A stretch of 64,000 nucleotides of DNA from the NCBI GenBank assembly GCA_963921795.1, contig OY997642.1:35161796-35225795 (forward strand), given 5' to 3'. The stretch is from Nannobrachium achirus (taxonomy: Eukaryota > Chordata > Actinopteri > Myctophiformes > Myctophidae). Below the pieces are notes generated by a model that was given only the letters and a program-made list of their open reading frames with translations, did no database searches and was not told the origin of the DNA. Positions 6,568 to 63,693 of the stretch are shown here, piece after piece (the first letter of the stretch is position 1; the number at the start of each line of letters is the position of its first letter). The position numbers and the translations under genes were made by a program.

Positions 6568-7071
6568 CAGTGGTGGAAAGTAACTATTGGTACATTTACT
6601 TAAGTGTACTTAATACAATTTTGAGGTAGCCTACTTTAATTTTGGAGTATTTTCAGGACTTTTACTTCTATACTGCAATACATCTCAGAGACAAATATTG
6701 TAGGCTACTTTTACTCCACTACAATTATTTGACAACTTTAGTTACTTTGTAGGTTTTTATTATTACAAAACATACATTAACCATGCACTATGAATATTTC
6801 GTCCATTTGAAAATAGCCAATCTACAAGCTCACAATGCGTCGCAATGCAAGGCATTGCGAGCTTGTAGATCTGCTATTTTCAAAATATGAAAACTTTAAA
6901 TGGGACATTGTGCATAATGATTACTTTTACTTTTGGTATTTTAAGTATACATTTTGATCCGAACATTTACTTTTACTCAATTTTGAATTACAGACTTTTA
7001 CTAACACGAGTATTTGTATTTTGCAATATTACTTTTACTTATAACAAATGTGAGTACTTTTTCCACCACTG
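6568..7071 (+). mobile_element. hAT-type MITE, CAGTGGTGGAAAGT family, copy 1
   Basis: The termini are CAGTGGTGGAAAGTAACT and AGTACTTTTTCCACCACTG, a family very common in fish genomes. The same hexamer, attctt, abuts both ends, which looks like a degraded target duplication. The middle holds the shared palindrome at about 6807-6884 (arms AAATAGCC...TCTACAAGCTCACAATGCG and its complement). It is non-autonomous, with no transposase. Confidence 0.8.
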
Positions 7072-7160
7072 ATTCTTTGCAGCCAGGGTGAGGGGGCACT
7101 TTTGTAACCCTTACTTCTCTGAAAAAGAAACTTAAATCATTCTCTAATTTCCAGCTAAAT

Positions 7161-7446
7161 CGATGGTTCCCAAACCTTTTGGGACCCAAAAGAGATAAAT
7201 GTTTGCCCGGGACTCAAACAGTGAAAACAGCAGATCGGCTATTTTCAGTATACTAGATTTATCTTATTTTTTAATTAAATTACTTAGACAAATCATTGAA
7301 TTATATATATATATATATATACACACACACATATATATATATATATATATATATAATTAAAAACAAAACAAAAAATGAAGGGACCCACGAAAAATGTGTC
7401 CGCGACCCACAAATGGGTCTCGACCCAGTGTTTGTGAAGCAGTGAC
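7161..7446 (+). mobile_element. hAT-type MITE, GGTTCCCAAACC family
   Basis: The left end reads GGTTCCCAAACCTTTTGGGA and the right end is a degraded complement (GACCCAGTGTTTGTGAAGC). The flanks agctaaat (7153-7160) and tgctaaat (7447-7454) match at seven of eight bases. A collapsed copy of the shared palindrome is at 7222-7247, with the two arms fused and the loop lost. An AT/AC microsatellite at about 7301-7355 lies inside. A related right-hand fragment is at 53096-53186. Confidence 0.65.
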
Positions 7447-8075
7447 TGCTAAATCATCCCATGTTCCACACAGAGCCGCCGTGGGCCTGGACGGCGCGCC
7501 GTGGCCCCAGGGACCCGCCGTGCACCTGTGTGGCTCCATGCATGTACAACTGCCTCCGCTCAATGGAAAATGCTGTGTTTTACCTCACGACTGTATAGCC
7601 TACAAGGCCTTAACTCCAGCTAGACCATCTGTTTCCAATTAGGACGGAGCCCCCTATACGCAGACAGACTGTGCTTTGCAGTCAAACAAGCCAGAATAAA
7701 AGGCTGGAGGTCCAACACTTGTCTTTGGAGGGAAACAATCTCTACTCCGCGTACTATAGAGCTTCTTCATATCTCAGTGTGTGTTATATTAACCGTGATC
7801 AAATATTGTTTCGTTGTTGTTCTTTTTACATTAACTTCGGATATGCATCATAATGCTGGCCTTCAGGGCCGGGTAAATGAAAAGGTTTACAATTACAGCT
7901 ATAGACTATAATACAATTGCTATTTTATTATTTTAAGCGTTTGGAAAATATACGCAATTCAAAATGTAAATGCCCCTCAAATGCAAACATAGGCCTATTT
8001 TATTATGAACATCTAATTGTTCATATAGGCTACTAAAAAAAGGATCAAATACATTGAAACGTGCTTCTGCCCAGT

Positions 8076-8362
8076 CAGTGGTTCTCAAAGTGGGGTCCGG
8101 TGACCCCCAGGGGTCCCCCAGGGTTCTAGAGGGTCCCCAGCCAAATTATAGTATCAAAATCAGTTCAACCACAATTTTAACAATGGGCTATTCCAAAGAA
8201 TCTTATAGCCTATTTAAAAAATATATATGTTTAAGAAAACAAATAAATAATTCTACACAATGAACAACTCGTTATTTTCAGATGGCGGCCAAATAGACAC
8301 AAATAGGCTACATAATAATATTGGGGTTCTTCTAGTCATGAAGAAGCTTGAGAAGCACAGTG
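8076..8362 (+). mobile_element. hAT-type MITE, CAGTGGTTCTCAAAG family
   Basis: The left end is CAGTGGTTCTCAAAGTGG, and a complementary but worn right end (GCTTGAGAAGCACAGTG) is near 8346-8362. No clean target duplication was found, and the right boundary is approximate. Confidence 0.55.
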
Positions 8363-10312
8363 CTTTACTGCAGCAGCGGTGCAGCGGTGGAATAATGGGG
8401 GCAGTGTGATTTCAGAGCGAGGGGAAACGGCCGTGCCCGACGACCTACGGATAACCCGAGAACCTTGGCACGAAAGCCTCAAACCAACAGTGACCCGCCT
8501 TGAAGTTACACACAAAACAAACCTACCTCTCTGCTCTCTCTGCTGAGCCTCCACAGCTTCTAATTATAGCACCTTTATACGCACCGCGTACCGCCAATTG
8601 AATGTCCCAATTCTAAGAGCTTGACGCATACTGTTTTTTGTTGTTGTTGTATTGTTCAATGTATAGTTTCAAATGCATATATAATATAGGCTACTGCATT
8701 TCGATGAGGTCGTATGATATCCCCAGACTTTAATTTTCGCTCCGTGTCACAGGTGAGGTGACAACGTGGAATGCAAGACTCGAGTGAGAAATGTGATAGC
8801 TGCTGCTTATTGCGAGATCAATTAGGCGAATGCACTTGATTATTTAGGTCAAAATTATGTTATAGGGGCTTAAATTAATGTATCACTGGCCAATTCCTAT
8901 TGTGTGTAGCCTACTTTCTACAGCTGAGAATGAAAAGCATAACAACAAACCCTGTTGGACATAATATGGCTATAATAATAGTAGGCTAGGGCTAAACGTA
9001 TACAGGCCCACCACATATAGGGTGGCCTAAACTGTTATAGTTTAAAATGCCAAACGATGGCTGAATTGCAACAATCAAATGCCACGTCACTTTATTATTG
9101 GGGTGTTTGACCAGGCAGGCGCAGGCCTTAAAAAATATATAGGCTAGAAATGTTCGGAAAACAACGGCGCAAATGCCTCGCCATTGCATATTATTGTTAT
9201 CAGCCCCGACAGCAAACAGGATAATGAATAAATAAATACATTCGTAATTTAATGAATGATTGAATACAGCCTAGTTGAATATGCAGAATTCCACTCGGGG
9301 CGTTCTGGTTTCCAGTTGTTCCCTGCTAGGAGAGGAGCTCAAACTGAACAAACTTGAACTCTGCCGCATGTCACATGATAGCACTACTTCAAAGCTGCCC
9401 GGCTACTGCTATTTGAGCCACAGTAGCAGTTGTCTGTGTCTTTCGCGGGTCTCATCTCATTTTATGGTATAAGGAGGCCACTGGGCCATTCAAACATCAA
9501 CAGAGGAGGACGATAGGTGACCTGCTTTTACAAGAGTATATTTATTTTTAATAAATATTTTTTAACACATAAGACCTGCTGAGGCCGATTCTACAATGCC
9601 TTCTAATCCGTTAGTTCTCACACACACTTTTTTTTATTTTTTCCAAAATGTTCAAAAATAACAACCTTTTCTCGAAGTCTCATCTTTATAATATACAAAT
9701 ACAATTCACATCATGCTTCTCAATTTTATATATTTTTTGCATGAGCTTGGTGATCAAAAAATGTAAATGACACAGTAAGATAGTTTCCCGGTTTAATGGG
9801 TTTTTAATAAGGATTGAAATCAGCAACATATTTTTGTGCTCTTATATTCATTGTGTGTATGCTATATTATTGTTTCTGTATAGGAGCTGCCTTGTATATT
9901 TTCATCTCAAATTTACGTTAGTGGGAAAACATTTGTTGCTTGCATAAAACGACAAAAATATGAATTTGCCCATAGTCATGTAGATAAGCCATATTAATGC
10001 AAGCAGGTTTTCACTTTATGATTTTCAATATATAAAAATACAATTTATAGGCTATGATAGCCCTCTGTCATGGCGAATACATGACTGTCTTTCCTTTTCA
10101 TCCATCTATCTATCTATCTATCTATCTATCTATCTATCTATCTATCTATCTATTTATTTTTCATTATTAATATAAATTGTGCATTGCATTCTAAATGGTA
10201 CTAGCACAATCCTGAGTGAAATACAGCTCTTGTGTGAAATACAAAAATTGCGGGTAAATGAAATTGTACACTGGATTTTACACTAGTGGGAGGCTGGAGC
10301 ACACATAGGCCT
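8363..10312. other. intergenic DNA, no gene seen
   Basis: No coding region, RNA gene or recognised transposon was found. The only clear repeat is a tetranucleotide (TCTA)n array at about 10102-10155. Confidence 0.5.
10102..10155. repeat. (TCTA)n microsatellite
   Basis: About 13 tandem TCTA units are nearly perfect. Confidence 0.95.
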
Positions 10313-62391: not shown

Positions 62392-62395
62392 AGCC

Positions 62396-62530
62396 TATTT
62401 TAACTCTGATATACAGTATGTTACATATTTTCAATCCGGCATGCCTGTTTTGGGCATGCCATTGTTGGTGAAATGTGCGAAAAGTATCAGATCTACAAGC
62501 TCAACACGTAGATCATCTATTTCCATTATT
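62396..62530. mobile_element. worn TTAA-family fragment with collapsed palindrome
   Basis: GCATGCCTGTTTTGGGCATG matches the interior of the TTAA-flanked family. CAGATCTACAAGCTCAACAC followed by GTAGATCATCTATTT is a loop-less palindrome. The termini are not clear. Confidence 0.45.
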
Positions 62531-62570
62531 CGGCGTACAACAAAGTACAGTATATTATTATACAGTAGTG

Positions 62571-63023
62571 CAAGGGTCTTCAACAGGGGGTCCGGGACCC
62601 CTATGGGGTCCTCAGAGTTACTATAGGGGGTCCTCCAAATCTTTGTGTGATCGACCTTTTTTTCCCCCCTCCTTTTTTATATTAAGCATTTGAACCCTAA
62701 CGTCCATATTCGGAGAACTTTAGCCAAAAATAGCAGATCTACAAGCTCACAACGCCTCGCAGAGCTTGTAGATCGGCTATTTTCGGCAAAGAGCTTTGGT
62801 GTAAAGGGGAAAAAGAGCAGAAAGAAAGGTCAAGTTTATTAAGTATTGACGGTTCAAGTGGTTAAATATCTAAAAACACAAATTGACATGAATCCAAAAT
62901 ACACTGATGATTGTGCTGTCAAACGATGAAACAATATCGAATCTATGAACAGGTTTTGGGGGTCCCTGCTTCATCTCTCTCTCAACTAAGGGGTCCTTGG
63001 CCTGAAAACGTTGAAGACCCCTG
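62571..63023 (+). mobile_element. hAT MITE, CAGGGGTCTTCAAC family, copy 5
   Basis: The termini CAAGGGTCTTCAAC and GTTGAAGACCCCTG are clear, but no convincing duplication flanks them. The palindrome at 62723-62788 has lost most of its right inner arm. The interior again contains the GTTCAAGTGGTTAA end of the TTAA family. Confidence 0.88.
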
Positions 63024-63264
63024 CTTTATTGTTCCCCAACCTGGCGTCTGGAGCCAGGGGGACGGACACACATTCAAAATGTTTTTAAAAGGTTGTCTAT
63101 TTTCGCTATTCATCATACAAGAAACTATATAGAGTGTGGGTGTGTGTGTGTGTGCCTTCGCACACATGTGCATGTGGGGGGGCTCAGCTTTTGTCCGATG
63201 TAAGAAGGGGGGCTCAAAGGAAAAAAAGGTTGAGATCCACTGCTCTGGATGACACCCTTTATGT
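63024..63264. other. gap with a partial hAT end
   Basis: AAAGGTTGAGATCCACTG at about 63222-63241 looks like a right end of a CAGTGGTTCTCAA-type element whose left end is unclear. Confidence 0.35.
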
Positions 63265-63693
63265 CAGTGGTTCTCAACATTTTCAGACCGCGAACCTCCA
63301 AAATAATCATATTTGAACTGGGACCCCCCAAAATGGTCATATTTGAACTGGGACCCCCCCCCCCCCCCCCCCCCCCCCCCCCCCACCCTGACAAGCACTT
63401 GTAATTGTACTGTTGAGGCATAACAGTTTGACTTTGCTCCACATAAATATTGTGAAATAGCAGATCTGTTATTTTCAAAATGTTTGCCTCTTTCTTATAA
63501 CATTTGACAAATTTGGGTAATGTTTGACCGTTTTTTTATAGTGTAGTTTGTTGATTAATTTTAATGCAGTAATTAAAAAAGGTCTTAAAAGACCTTCCTA
63601 TAACTTGTCACTTCACTGTTATCTGGGAACATCCCTCACAAAATCATGTGTTGACCCCCCCTGGGGGTCCCGACCCAAAGGTTGAGAACCAGG
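63265..63693 (+). mobile_element. hAT-type MITE, CAGTGGTTCTCAAC family, with poly-C run
   Basis: The left end CAGTGGTTCTCAACATTTTC and right text GTCCCGACCCAAAGGTTGAG followed by AACCAGGG define it. A 31-base C run is at 63354-63384. A collapsed palindrome (AATAGCAGATCTGTTATTTT) is at about 63457-63476. Confidence 0.75.

Follow-up and report, generated by a model that had tools for sequence, protein, structure and literature searches.

Among the transposons described so far, the closest precedent that we found for the elements analysed here appears to be the CMITE families of Acropora corals (PMC2872659). In the accessible part of that paper, CMITEs are miniature inverted-repeat transposable elements (MITEs) that are flanked by TTAA, differ in their ends and share a strongly conserved internal region of ~75 bp, and a new mobile family, CMITE-IN, was formed by insertion of a CMITE at a TTAA within another element. 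The same text gives the ends of the piggyBac superfamily as CC[C/T]T and lists, in its Table 2, one piggyBac-like element with CCCA (PMC2872659). According to the available part of a second study, the piggyBac and piggyBat transposases use two cysteine-rich domains for binding to short palindromes close to the transposon ends (PMC11707139). Here we describe a palindrome that recurs inside several MITE families in a 64,000-nt stretch of contig OY997642.1 from the fish Nannobrachium achirus (the window). An 8-bp target-site duplication (TSD) is a mark of hAT transposons, and the Kolobok T2-MITEs of Xenopus presumably duplicate a TTAA target. We put at roughly 0.7 the probability that the palindrome is part of a lineage of TTAA-targeting MITEs, which inserted into MITEs with 8-bp TSDs (hAT-type) and was co-amplified with them; membership of this lineage is claimed for most of the places where the palindrome could be traced. 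The lineage would consist of short non-autonomous transposons with the palindrome as an internal part, in two subtypes: an X type of ~140–300 bp with one palindrome in the middle and ends of the form TTAACCACTTGAACCCT, and a Y type of ~540 bp with a palindrome close to each end. All counts refer to this one window; for the host families it was compared with itself after the palindromes and simple repeats were masked.

A profile built from 17 copies of the palindrome in the window detects 34 merged loci at E<0.05. The palindrome arm, AGCAGATCTACAAGCTC, has 55 matches on both strands with up to three mismatches, compared with a mean of 0.11 and a maximum of 2 in 100 shuffles. A first-pass annotation of the same DNA had placed the hairpin at more than 30 positions, which agrees with these numbers, and each of its 19 example coordinates falls no more than 10 bp from the start of a counted locus. 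Its range ended at 63476, where a match (63450–63478) reaches E=0.13 at best and is not counted. By locus coordinates, the palindrome is at least 70 bp long at 21 of the 34 loci and shorter at 13. Eight stretches were folded as DNA. The seven palindromes are far more stable than their shuffles (z from -8.7 to -18.9, with none of 200 shuffles equally stable), and the control, 12240–12330 from a TTAA relative in which most of the palindrome is gone, is not (z -0.26, 82 of 200 shuffles as stable).

The homology extends past the hairpin. Sequences were compared over 90 bp outside the palindrome, with 30 mononucleotide shuffles per pair; among 2024 cross-family flank pairs, the top 13 rows all link two host families, A and E, and two units named X31 and X46 (z 17.0 for the X31/X46 pair). 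The stretch that these flanks have in common is bounded by TTAACCACTTGAACCCT and, on the opposite side, by its reverse complement. This end motif has 18 matches in the window against 0.27 expected, and 14 of the 18 face a palindrome from the proper side at a distance of at most 130 bp (binomial P 2e-13); the 14 fall into just four contexts (A, D, X31, X46), with A copies that are not independent. Host A accounts for eight of them (two each in A20, A27 and A62, one each in A37 and A45), and the others are two each in X31 and X46 and one each in D26 and D47. At 5326, 12193, 36512 and 57082 the motif does not face a palindrome within this distance. In A20, A27, A62, X31 and X46 the motif is found inverted at both ends with at most three mismatches.

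Ten units were picked for recognisable ends, and their TTAAs were counted. Both TTAAs are intact in A45 and A62, inside host A, and outside families A–E in X46, X10 and the relative at 12193; one is intact in A20, A27, A37, X31 and Y56. Nine of the units (A20, A27, A37, A45, A62, X31, X46, X10 and Y56) hold the palindrome between TTAA-based ends, a set selected by having ends and not a sample of the 34 loci. X31 (31122–31320, + strand) has no recognised host and an eroded left palindrome arm (31197–31227). X46 (46624–46919, - strand) contains two half palindromes (46712–46736 and 46791–46815), and X10 (10360–10503, + strand, 144 bp) a palindrome at 10394–10467, with flanks that look hAT-like by eye. 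In the relative at 12193–12364 (+ strand), the palindrome is reduced to a degenerate right arm. Elsewhere, D26 and D47 have TTAA at one end, E35 and E60 have none intact, and B and C lack an intact pair. The X-type ends start with CCAC and the Y-type ends with CCCA, neither of which fits the CC[C/T]T of piggyBac.

We recognise five host families (A–E), plus free or unassigned copies, and not the eight or more families that had been proposed. A, B, C and D each have at least three copies in the window, and E has two. Host A has CAGGGGTCTTCAAC ends and shows the nested arrangement. A20 (20567–21031, + strand; TSD gcctatgg, 8/8) contains a TTAA unit at 20654–20864 (+), whose left TTAA is decayed to ACAA and whose right one is intact, with the palindrome at 20696–20772. 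A27 (27472–27894, +; TSD atttaggg, 8/8) contains a unit at 27578–27736 (+) with the palindrome reduced to its outer arms, and A37 (37456–37876, +; TSD ttctaaaa, 8/8) a unit at 37527–37722 (+) with the palindrome at 37564–37633. A45 (45136–45600, -) has gtatac at both flanks; its unit (45323–45504, -) retains both TTAAs and a shortened palindrome (45410–45458). The flanks of A62 (62571–63023, +) match at 5/8 positions, and its unit (62682–62865, +) retains both TTAAs and a palindrome at 62724–62787. At 21031–21039, the palindrome-bearing MITE A20 has inserted at the border of another palindrome, X21 (21039–21114), which adjoins its right TSD.

Host E has the ends AGGGATGGGACGATA. E35 (35569–36028, +; TAGGAATGGGACGATA end; TSD gtcgcaca, 8/8) holds a decayed nested unit (35637–35882, +) without an intact TTAA, in which the palindrome (35684–35790) has repeated arm pieces. 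It lies inside a B copy (35463–36135, -), which it splits and which has lost the palindrome and kept the outer arms. In E60 (60588–60996, +) the palindrome is at 60688–60774 and the decayed right end of the nested unit at ~60849–60865. The region around E60 (60550–61033) also shows long imperfect direct repeats at the flanks, of ~37 bp, which are not 8-bp duplications. Taking the families together, perfect 8-bp duplications (8/8) flank A20, A27, A37, C17, C30 and E35, and a 7/8 duplication flanks C22; none was seen at C43 or C19.

The shared flanks of A and E could mean that every host family goes back to a single ancestor with the palindrome. We find this scarcely credible, because masking of the palindromes leaves A, C and D in repeat components of their own and the ends of the hosts differ. 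B and E do share one component, which is due to the position of E35 inside a B copy. Homology well beyond the palindrome, which the first-pass annotation had named as the sign of simple inheritance from a common ancestor, is indeed found for A, E, X31 and X46, but the shared stretch corresponds to the nested element and not to a common ancestor of the hosts. The bodies around the palindrome are less distinct than had been described: A, E, X31 and X46 share the TTAA unit, and C shares its interior with the element at 56141–56678. Of the 8-bp, TA and TTAA targets that had been listed for the families, the 8-bp target holds for A, C and E, and TTAA is a feature of the element that carries the palindrome. 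The ends of E look TA-flanked, yet one of its two copies has the perfect 8-bp duplication gtcgcaca.

The second subtype is represented by Y56 (56141–56678), a TTAA-type element with the left end TTACCCATG, the right end TTAACCCATTTAGGCCTA, terminal arms of 119 nt (91%) and palindromes at 56180–56258 and 56560–56637. Its interior between the palindromes aligns with the corresponding interior of C22 (84.9%, 146 columns, E 5e-36) and with part of C30 (91%, 69 columns), which indicates that host C carries a Y-type insert. The ends of host C are AGGGGCGTCACA. C22 (22469–22931, +; TSD 7/8) has the insert with palindromes at 22547–22625 and 22803–22860, and C30 (30437–30916, -; TSD attgtggg, 8/8) has it with palindromes at 30469–30543 and 30740–30817. 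C17 (17723–17951, +; AGGGGCGTCACA ends; TSD gtgatgcc, 8/8) has a single palindrome (17796–17888) with the outer arms TTAGCTATTG and CAATAGTTAA. C43 (43235–43484, +) retains one palindrome (43320–43397) and has lost the interior and the second palindrome. C19 (19150–19310, +; ends approximate) is palindrome-free; it was considered as an empty host site and ruled out, since it retains CAATAGTTAA and is a deletion derivative. The same position of host C is therefore occupied by two palindromes (C22 and C30), one (C17 and C43) or none (19150), which we read as a single insertion followed by internal deletions. C43 itself lies within an inverted-repeat element of ~1 kb (42851–43867) with arms of 69 nt (97%) and 76 nt (89%).

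The link between Y and X is based on the palindrome and the end sequence. Over 18 positions of the Y end, D26 agrees at 14, D47 and 12193 at 13, A37 and X31 at 12, and X46 and X10 at 11. When the 717 TTAA sites of the window are ranked by this match, the top five are Y itself, D26, D47, 12193 and one unrelated site. Among the copies in the window, the palindromes of all hosts align, whereas the X and Y flanks outside the palindrome are mostly similar at chance level.

Hosts B (ends ATCGTCGTTGTCGGG) and D (ends CAGTGGTGGAAAGTAACT) also carry the palindrome. The B copies are B23 (23711–23951, +; ATCGTCGTTGTCGGG end, far end approximate; palindrome 23787–23845), B29 (29330–29597, -; palindrome 29443–29516), B33 (33869–34094, +; half palindrome 33944–33982) and B48 (48011–48266, -; palindrome 48109–48185), in addition to the copy split by E35. 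In host D, D6 (6568–7071, +) runs from CAGTGGTGGAAAGTAACT to CCACCACTG, with the palindrome at 6806–6884 and attctt at both sides. D47 (47116–47568, +) shows a nested TTAACCGCTTCAACCCT end at 47326 next to the palindrome at 47360–47437, and the fragment D26 (26004–26172, +) a nested TTAACCACTTAAGCCCT end at 26059 next to the palindrome at 26096–26172. D40 (40659–40926, +) is internally deleted and retains the palindrome at 40685–40756, and the palindrome of D34/D35 (34801–35231, -; far end tentative) is degenerate (34801–34865). D39 (39083–39330, +) is palindrome-free; it retains TTAACCCT..CCCTATATAC and then continues into a different hairpin at the place of the palindrome, with arms at 39332–39403 and 39407–39478 that are 85% complementary (element 39083–39478). 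A 24-base piece of this hairpin has no second occurrence in the window at up to six mismatches. At the flanks of D47 (47090–47597) there are long imperfect direct repeats of ~25–28 bp, which are not 8-bp duplications.

Some copies of the palindrome stand apart from any recognised unit. X18 (17992–18062) and X59 (59542–59625, with paired substitutions in both arms) have neither a recognised host nor recognised TTAA ends. TTAA ends were likewise not recognised at X21 or at the half palindrome X13 (13903–13946), which lies beside Y-type internal sequence, and no host was recognised for the half palindrome X44 (44480–44521) or for a lone arm at 62478–62503. In C17 the insert is almost nothing but hairpin (93 nt), with TTAG and TTAA at its outer edges. 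X18, X21, X44 and X59, which show no TTAA ends, together with C17 and with the B flanks, whose match to the TTAA lineage is not firm after removal of the palindrome edge, would suit an independently mobile palindrome, namely a foldback element of ~80–95 bp that entered TTAA and hAT-type MITEs alike. We consider this rather unlikely. Inspection by eye revealed no target duplication at the edges of the palindrome, where the first-pass annotation had suggested looking for them. TTAA-based ends enclose the palindrome in nine units, and A, E, X31 and X46 share flanks. C17, moreover, occupies the position of the two-palindrome insert of the other C copies, which points to a deletion product.

A tree of 25 palindromes, from which nine loci shorter than 50 bp were excluded, groups them largely by host. 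The host labels require 7 changes on the tree compared with 15.4 for shuffled labels, and none of 200 shuffles is as low. The groups are A (78/0, low support), B (92/98) and C with Y56 (98/99), and for these three hosts the grouping favours a single entry followed by co-amplification. The proposal that the palindrome is a hitch-hiker stands in so far as it appears to have entered different MITE families and to travel with them, which the grouping by host supports for A, B and C; a free palindrome, or copying from MITE to MITE as the main route, is not supported, given the TTAA-based ends of the nine units, although a free palindrome may still account for loci without such ends. Repeated copying of the hairpin between pre-existing MITEs, by template switching or gene conversion, would fit the collapsed or repeated arms of E35, X46 and A27, which a sequence liable to hairpin errors should show. 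It is very improbable, however, since the palindromes cluster by host and are not mixed, and since the A and B copies share one arm mismatch (AGCAGATC vs AGCCGATC) that conversion ought to have erased.

The two arms of the palindrome have changed together. In 14 near-full copies, 88.8% of the cells are paired, and this falls to 31–46% when the partners are slid by 1–3 columns. Two-sided changes occur in 13 of the 36 arm pairs (7.3 in shuffles) and in 37 cells (14.7 in shuffles), and none of 500 shuffles reaches either value; further pair types are not above the shuffles (26 vs 24.5, 127 of 500). The same arm differs by 26% between families, and the two arms within a copy by 14% on average, ranging from 1/36 (B48 and C17) to 13/36 (X21). 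Selection for a symmetric site and repair templated by the other arm both fit this pattern.

Such co-variation would also be expected if the palindrome were a cis-acting amplification element (an enhancer, a hairpin or a transposase-binding site) that is kept for spreading MITEs of several superfamilies, a possibility that is compatible with a TTAA-targeting carrier. The census after masking points the same way: the palindrome is present in all four families with at least three copies (A–D), and the three palindrome-free dispersed families (7382/53124, 13295/57319 and 24142/36719) have two copies each. The short near-end palindromes bound by piggyBac and piggyBat transposases provide a parallel, at least in the available part of that account, and are much shorter (PMC11707139). 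We nevertheless regard this role as unlikely. The census covers a single window, and a one-sided Fisher test of four of four families against one of four with two copies (E) yields 4/56 = 0.07. The palindrome is shortened at 13 of the 34 loci, the further pair types do not exceed the shuffles, and arm-to-arm repair yields co-variation as well. Seven of the 14 rows in the co-variation analysis are C or Y copies, and this kinship inflates the counts. A stronger version, in which a TTAA MITE imports a superfamily-independent amplification element and the hairpin boosts the copying of whichever MITE contains it, is distinctly unlikely; it would account for the palindrome in each host family with at least three copies and for symmetry kept despite sequence change.

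Several observations weigh against the nesting of a TTAA lineage. TTAA ends were not seen by eye at X13, X18, X21, X44, X59 and the arm at 62478, the nested unit in D is visible by its left end only, and the insert of host C has no intact TTAA pair. A full 8-bp duplication is absent in A45, A62 and E60. On the tree, D (3 changes) and E (2) are not grouped, and 20 of the 22 inner branches are weak. A clean empty host site was not found in the window. Three palindrome-free family members, which the first-pass annotation had asked for, do exist (19150, the split B copy and D39), and in all of them traces of the outer arms or the TTAA unit persist. X-type ends open with CCAC instead of CC[C/T]T. 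Matches to the Y end at 12 of 18 positions are common by chance, and five of the nine such sites listed are unrelated. The flank scores of Y56 to C (z up to 5.7) and B (z up to 5.9) are inflated because the flanks started with the TTTTC edge of the palindrome. With this edge cut, in a test of 32 pairs with 1000 shuffles, the best values are z 3.5 for Y56/A37 and 3.3 for Y56/B48 (5 of 1000 shuffles each), followed by 2.6 for Y56/C43 and 2.5 for Y56/C30 (16 of 1000 each); most pairs are at chance, and the B48 flank is the one of six B flanks at 5 of 1000. B is thus not tied to the lineage by these flanks, and C is tied only by its interior.

We retain the nested TTAA lineage as the favoured explanation in the following form. 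The carrier was most likely moved by a TTAA-type transposase supplied in trans, and its copies would have entered TTAA sites in the dispensable interiors of several hAT-type MITEs with 8-bp TSDs. The outer ends of the composites would have stayed functional, so that the transposase of the host multiplied them; an interior insertion spares the host ends and would thus leave the palindrome at a fixed central place in each host family. For C, D and above all B, entry by nesting rather than by recombination is presumed, and X and Y would form one lineage. Within the carrier, the palindrome may function as a symmetric site for binding or as a hairpin, with its symmetry kept or renewed despite sequence change, by selection or arm-templated repair.

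The remainder of the window contains a forkhead gene at 682–2214, for whose encoded domain FOXC2 is the nearest solved structure, and a kelch gene of the KLHDC2/KLHL20/DRC7 type at 24912–25940. We take the complete forkhead protein to resemble fish FOXC1. A domain scan of five open reading frames (ORFs) in the window found only forkhead and kelch domains and no transposase, and no hAT transposase ORF was recognised in the window within host copies A, C and E. The carrier is not filed as piggyBac, because its ends are not CC[C/T]T and a transposase was not found. A palindrome-free inverted-repeat element at 54831–55232 has arms of 57 nt (100%) and 81 nt (96%). The sole Rfam match in the window at gathering level is Flavi_ISFV_CRE at 17808–17898 (44.5 bits, cut-off 41, E 0.00043), which we judge to reflect likeness to a long hairpin and not homology. 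A permissive Rfam search of 22500–22900 gave 12 matches, none of which reaches its own gathering score, and a tRNA search of the window found none. Pattern scans of viral contigs gave no matches, a single exact match in a bacterial metagenome-assembled genome contig (L001) was put down to chance, and a literature search for six strings found no occurrence.

One core inside unrelated transposons, an apparent breach of descent, becomes in this way a testable case of composite MITE formation, in which a TTAA element would sit in the interiors of hAT-type MITEs and ride on their amplification. Should the bias in the census extend to the whole genome, it would offer a natural experiment on the question of whether non-autonomous transposons multiply faster with a hairpin inside them. 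Among known systems, the piggyBac-like families of salmon are also TTAA elements of fish and are nested at TTAA three deep, but they are ~1440 bp long with CCTG ends, and the accessible text of the paper does not contain 'palindrom' (PMC2198921). The Kolobok T2-MITEs of Xenopus are a TTAA-type MITE family (with 23 occurrences each of the words TTAA and MITE in the available portion of the paper) and are likened to the present elements by description only (PMC6004289). The piggyBac and piggyBat ends likewise have palindromic, transposase-binding sites near TTAA ends; in the part of the study at hand the piggyBac site is 19 bp, and the palindrome described here differs from it in sequence and length and has a putative binding role (PMC11707139). 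The CMITE ends keep CC[C/T]T, in contrast to the CCAC of the X-type ends, and the accessible CMITE text does not use 'palindrom-', 'hairpin' or 'secondary structure' (PMC2872659). To judge from that text, the element entered by CMITE-IN was itself flanked by TTAA, unlike hosts A, C and E with their 8-bp duplications. The conserved internal region of the coral TTAA MITEs may have its counterpart in the palindrome, and the birth of a family by insertion of one element into another, as described for CMITE-IN, is what we propose for the composites here (PMC2872659).

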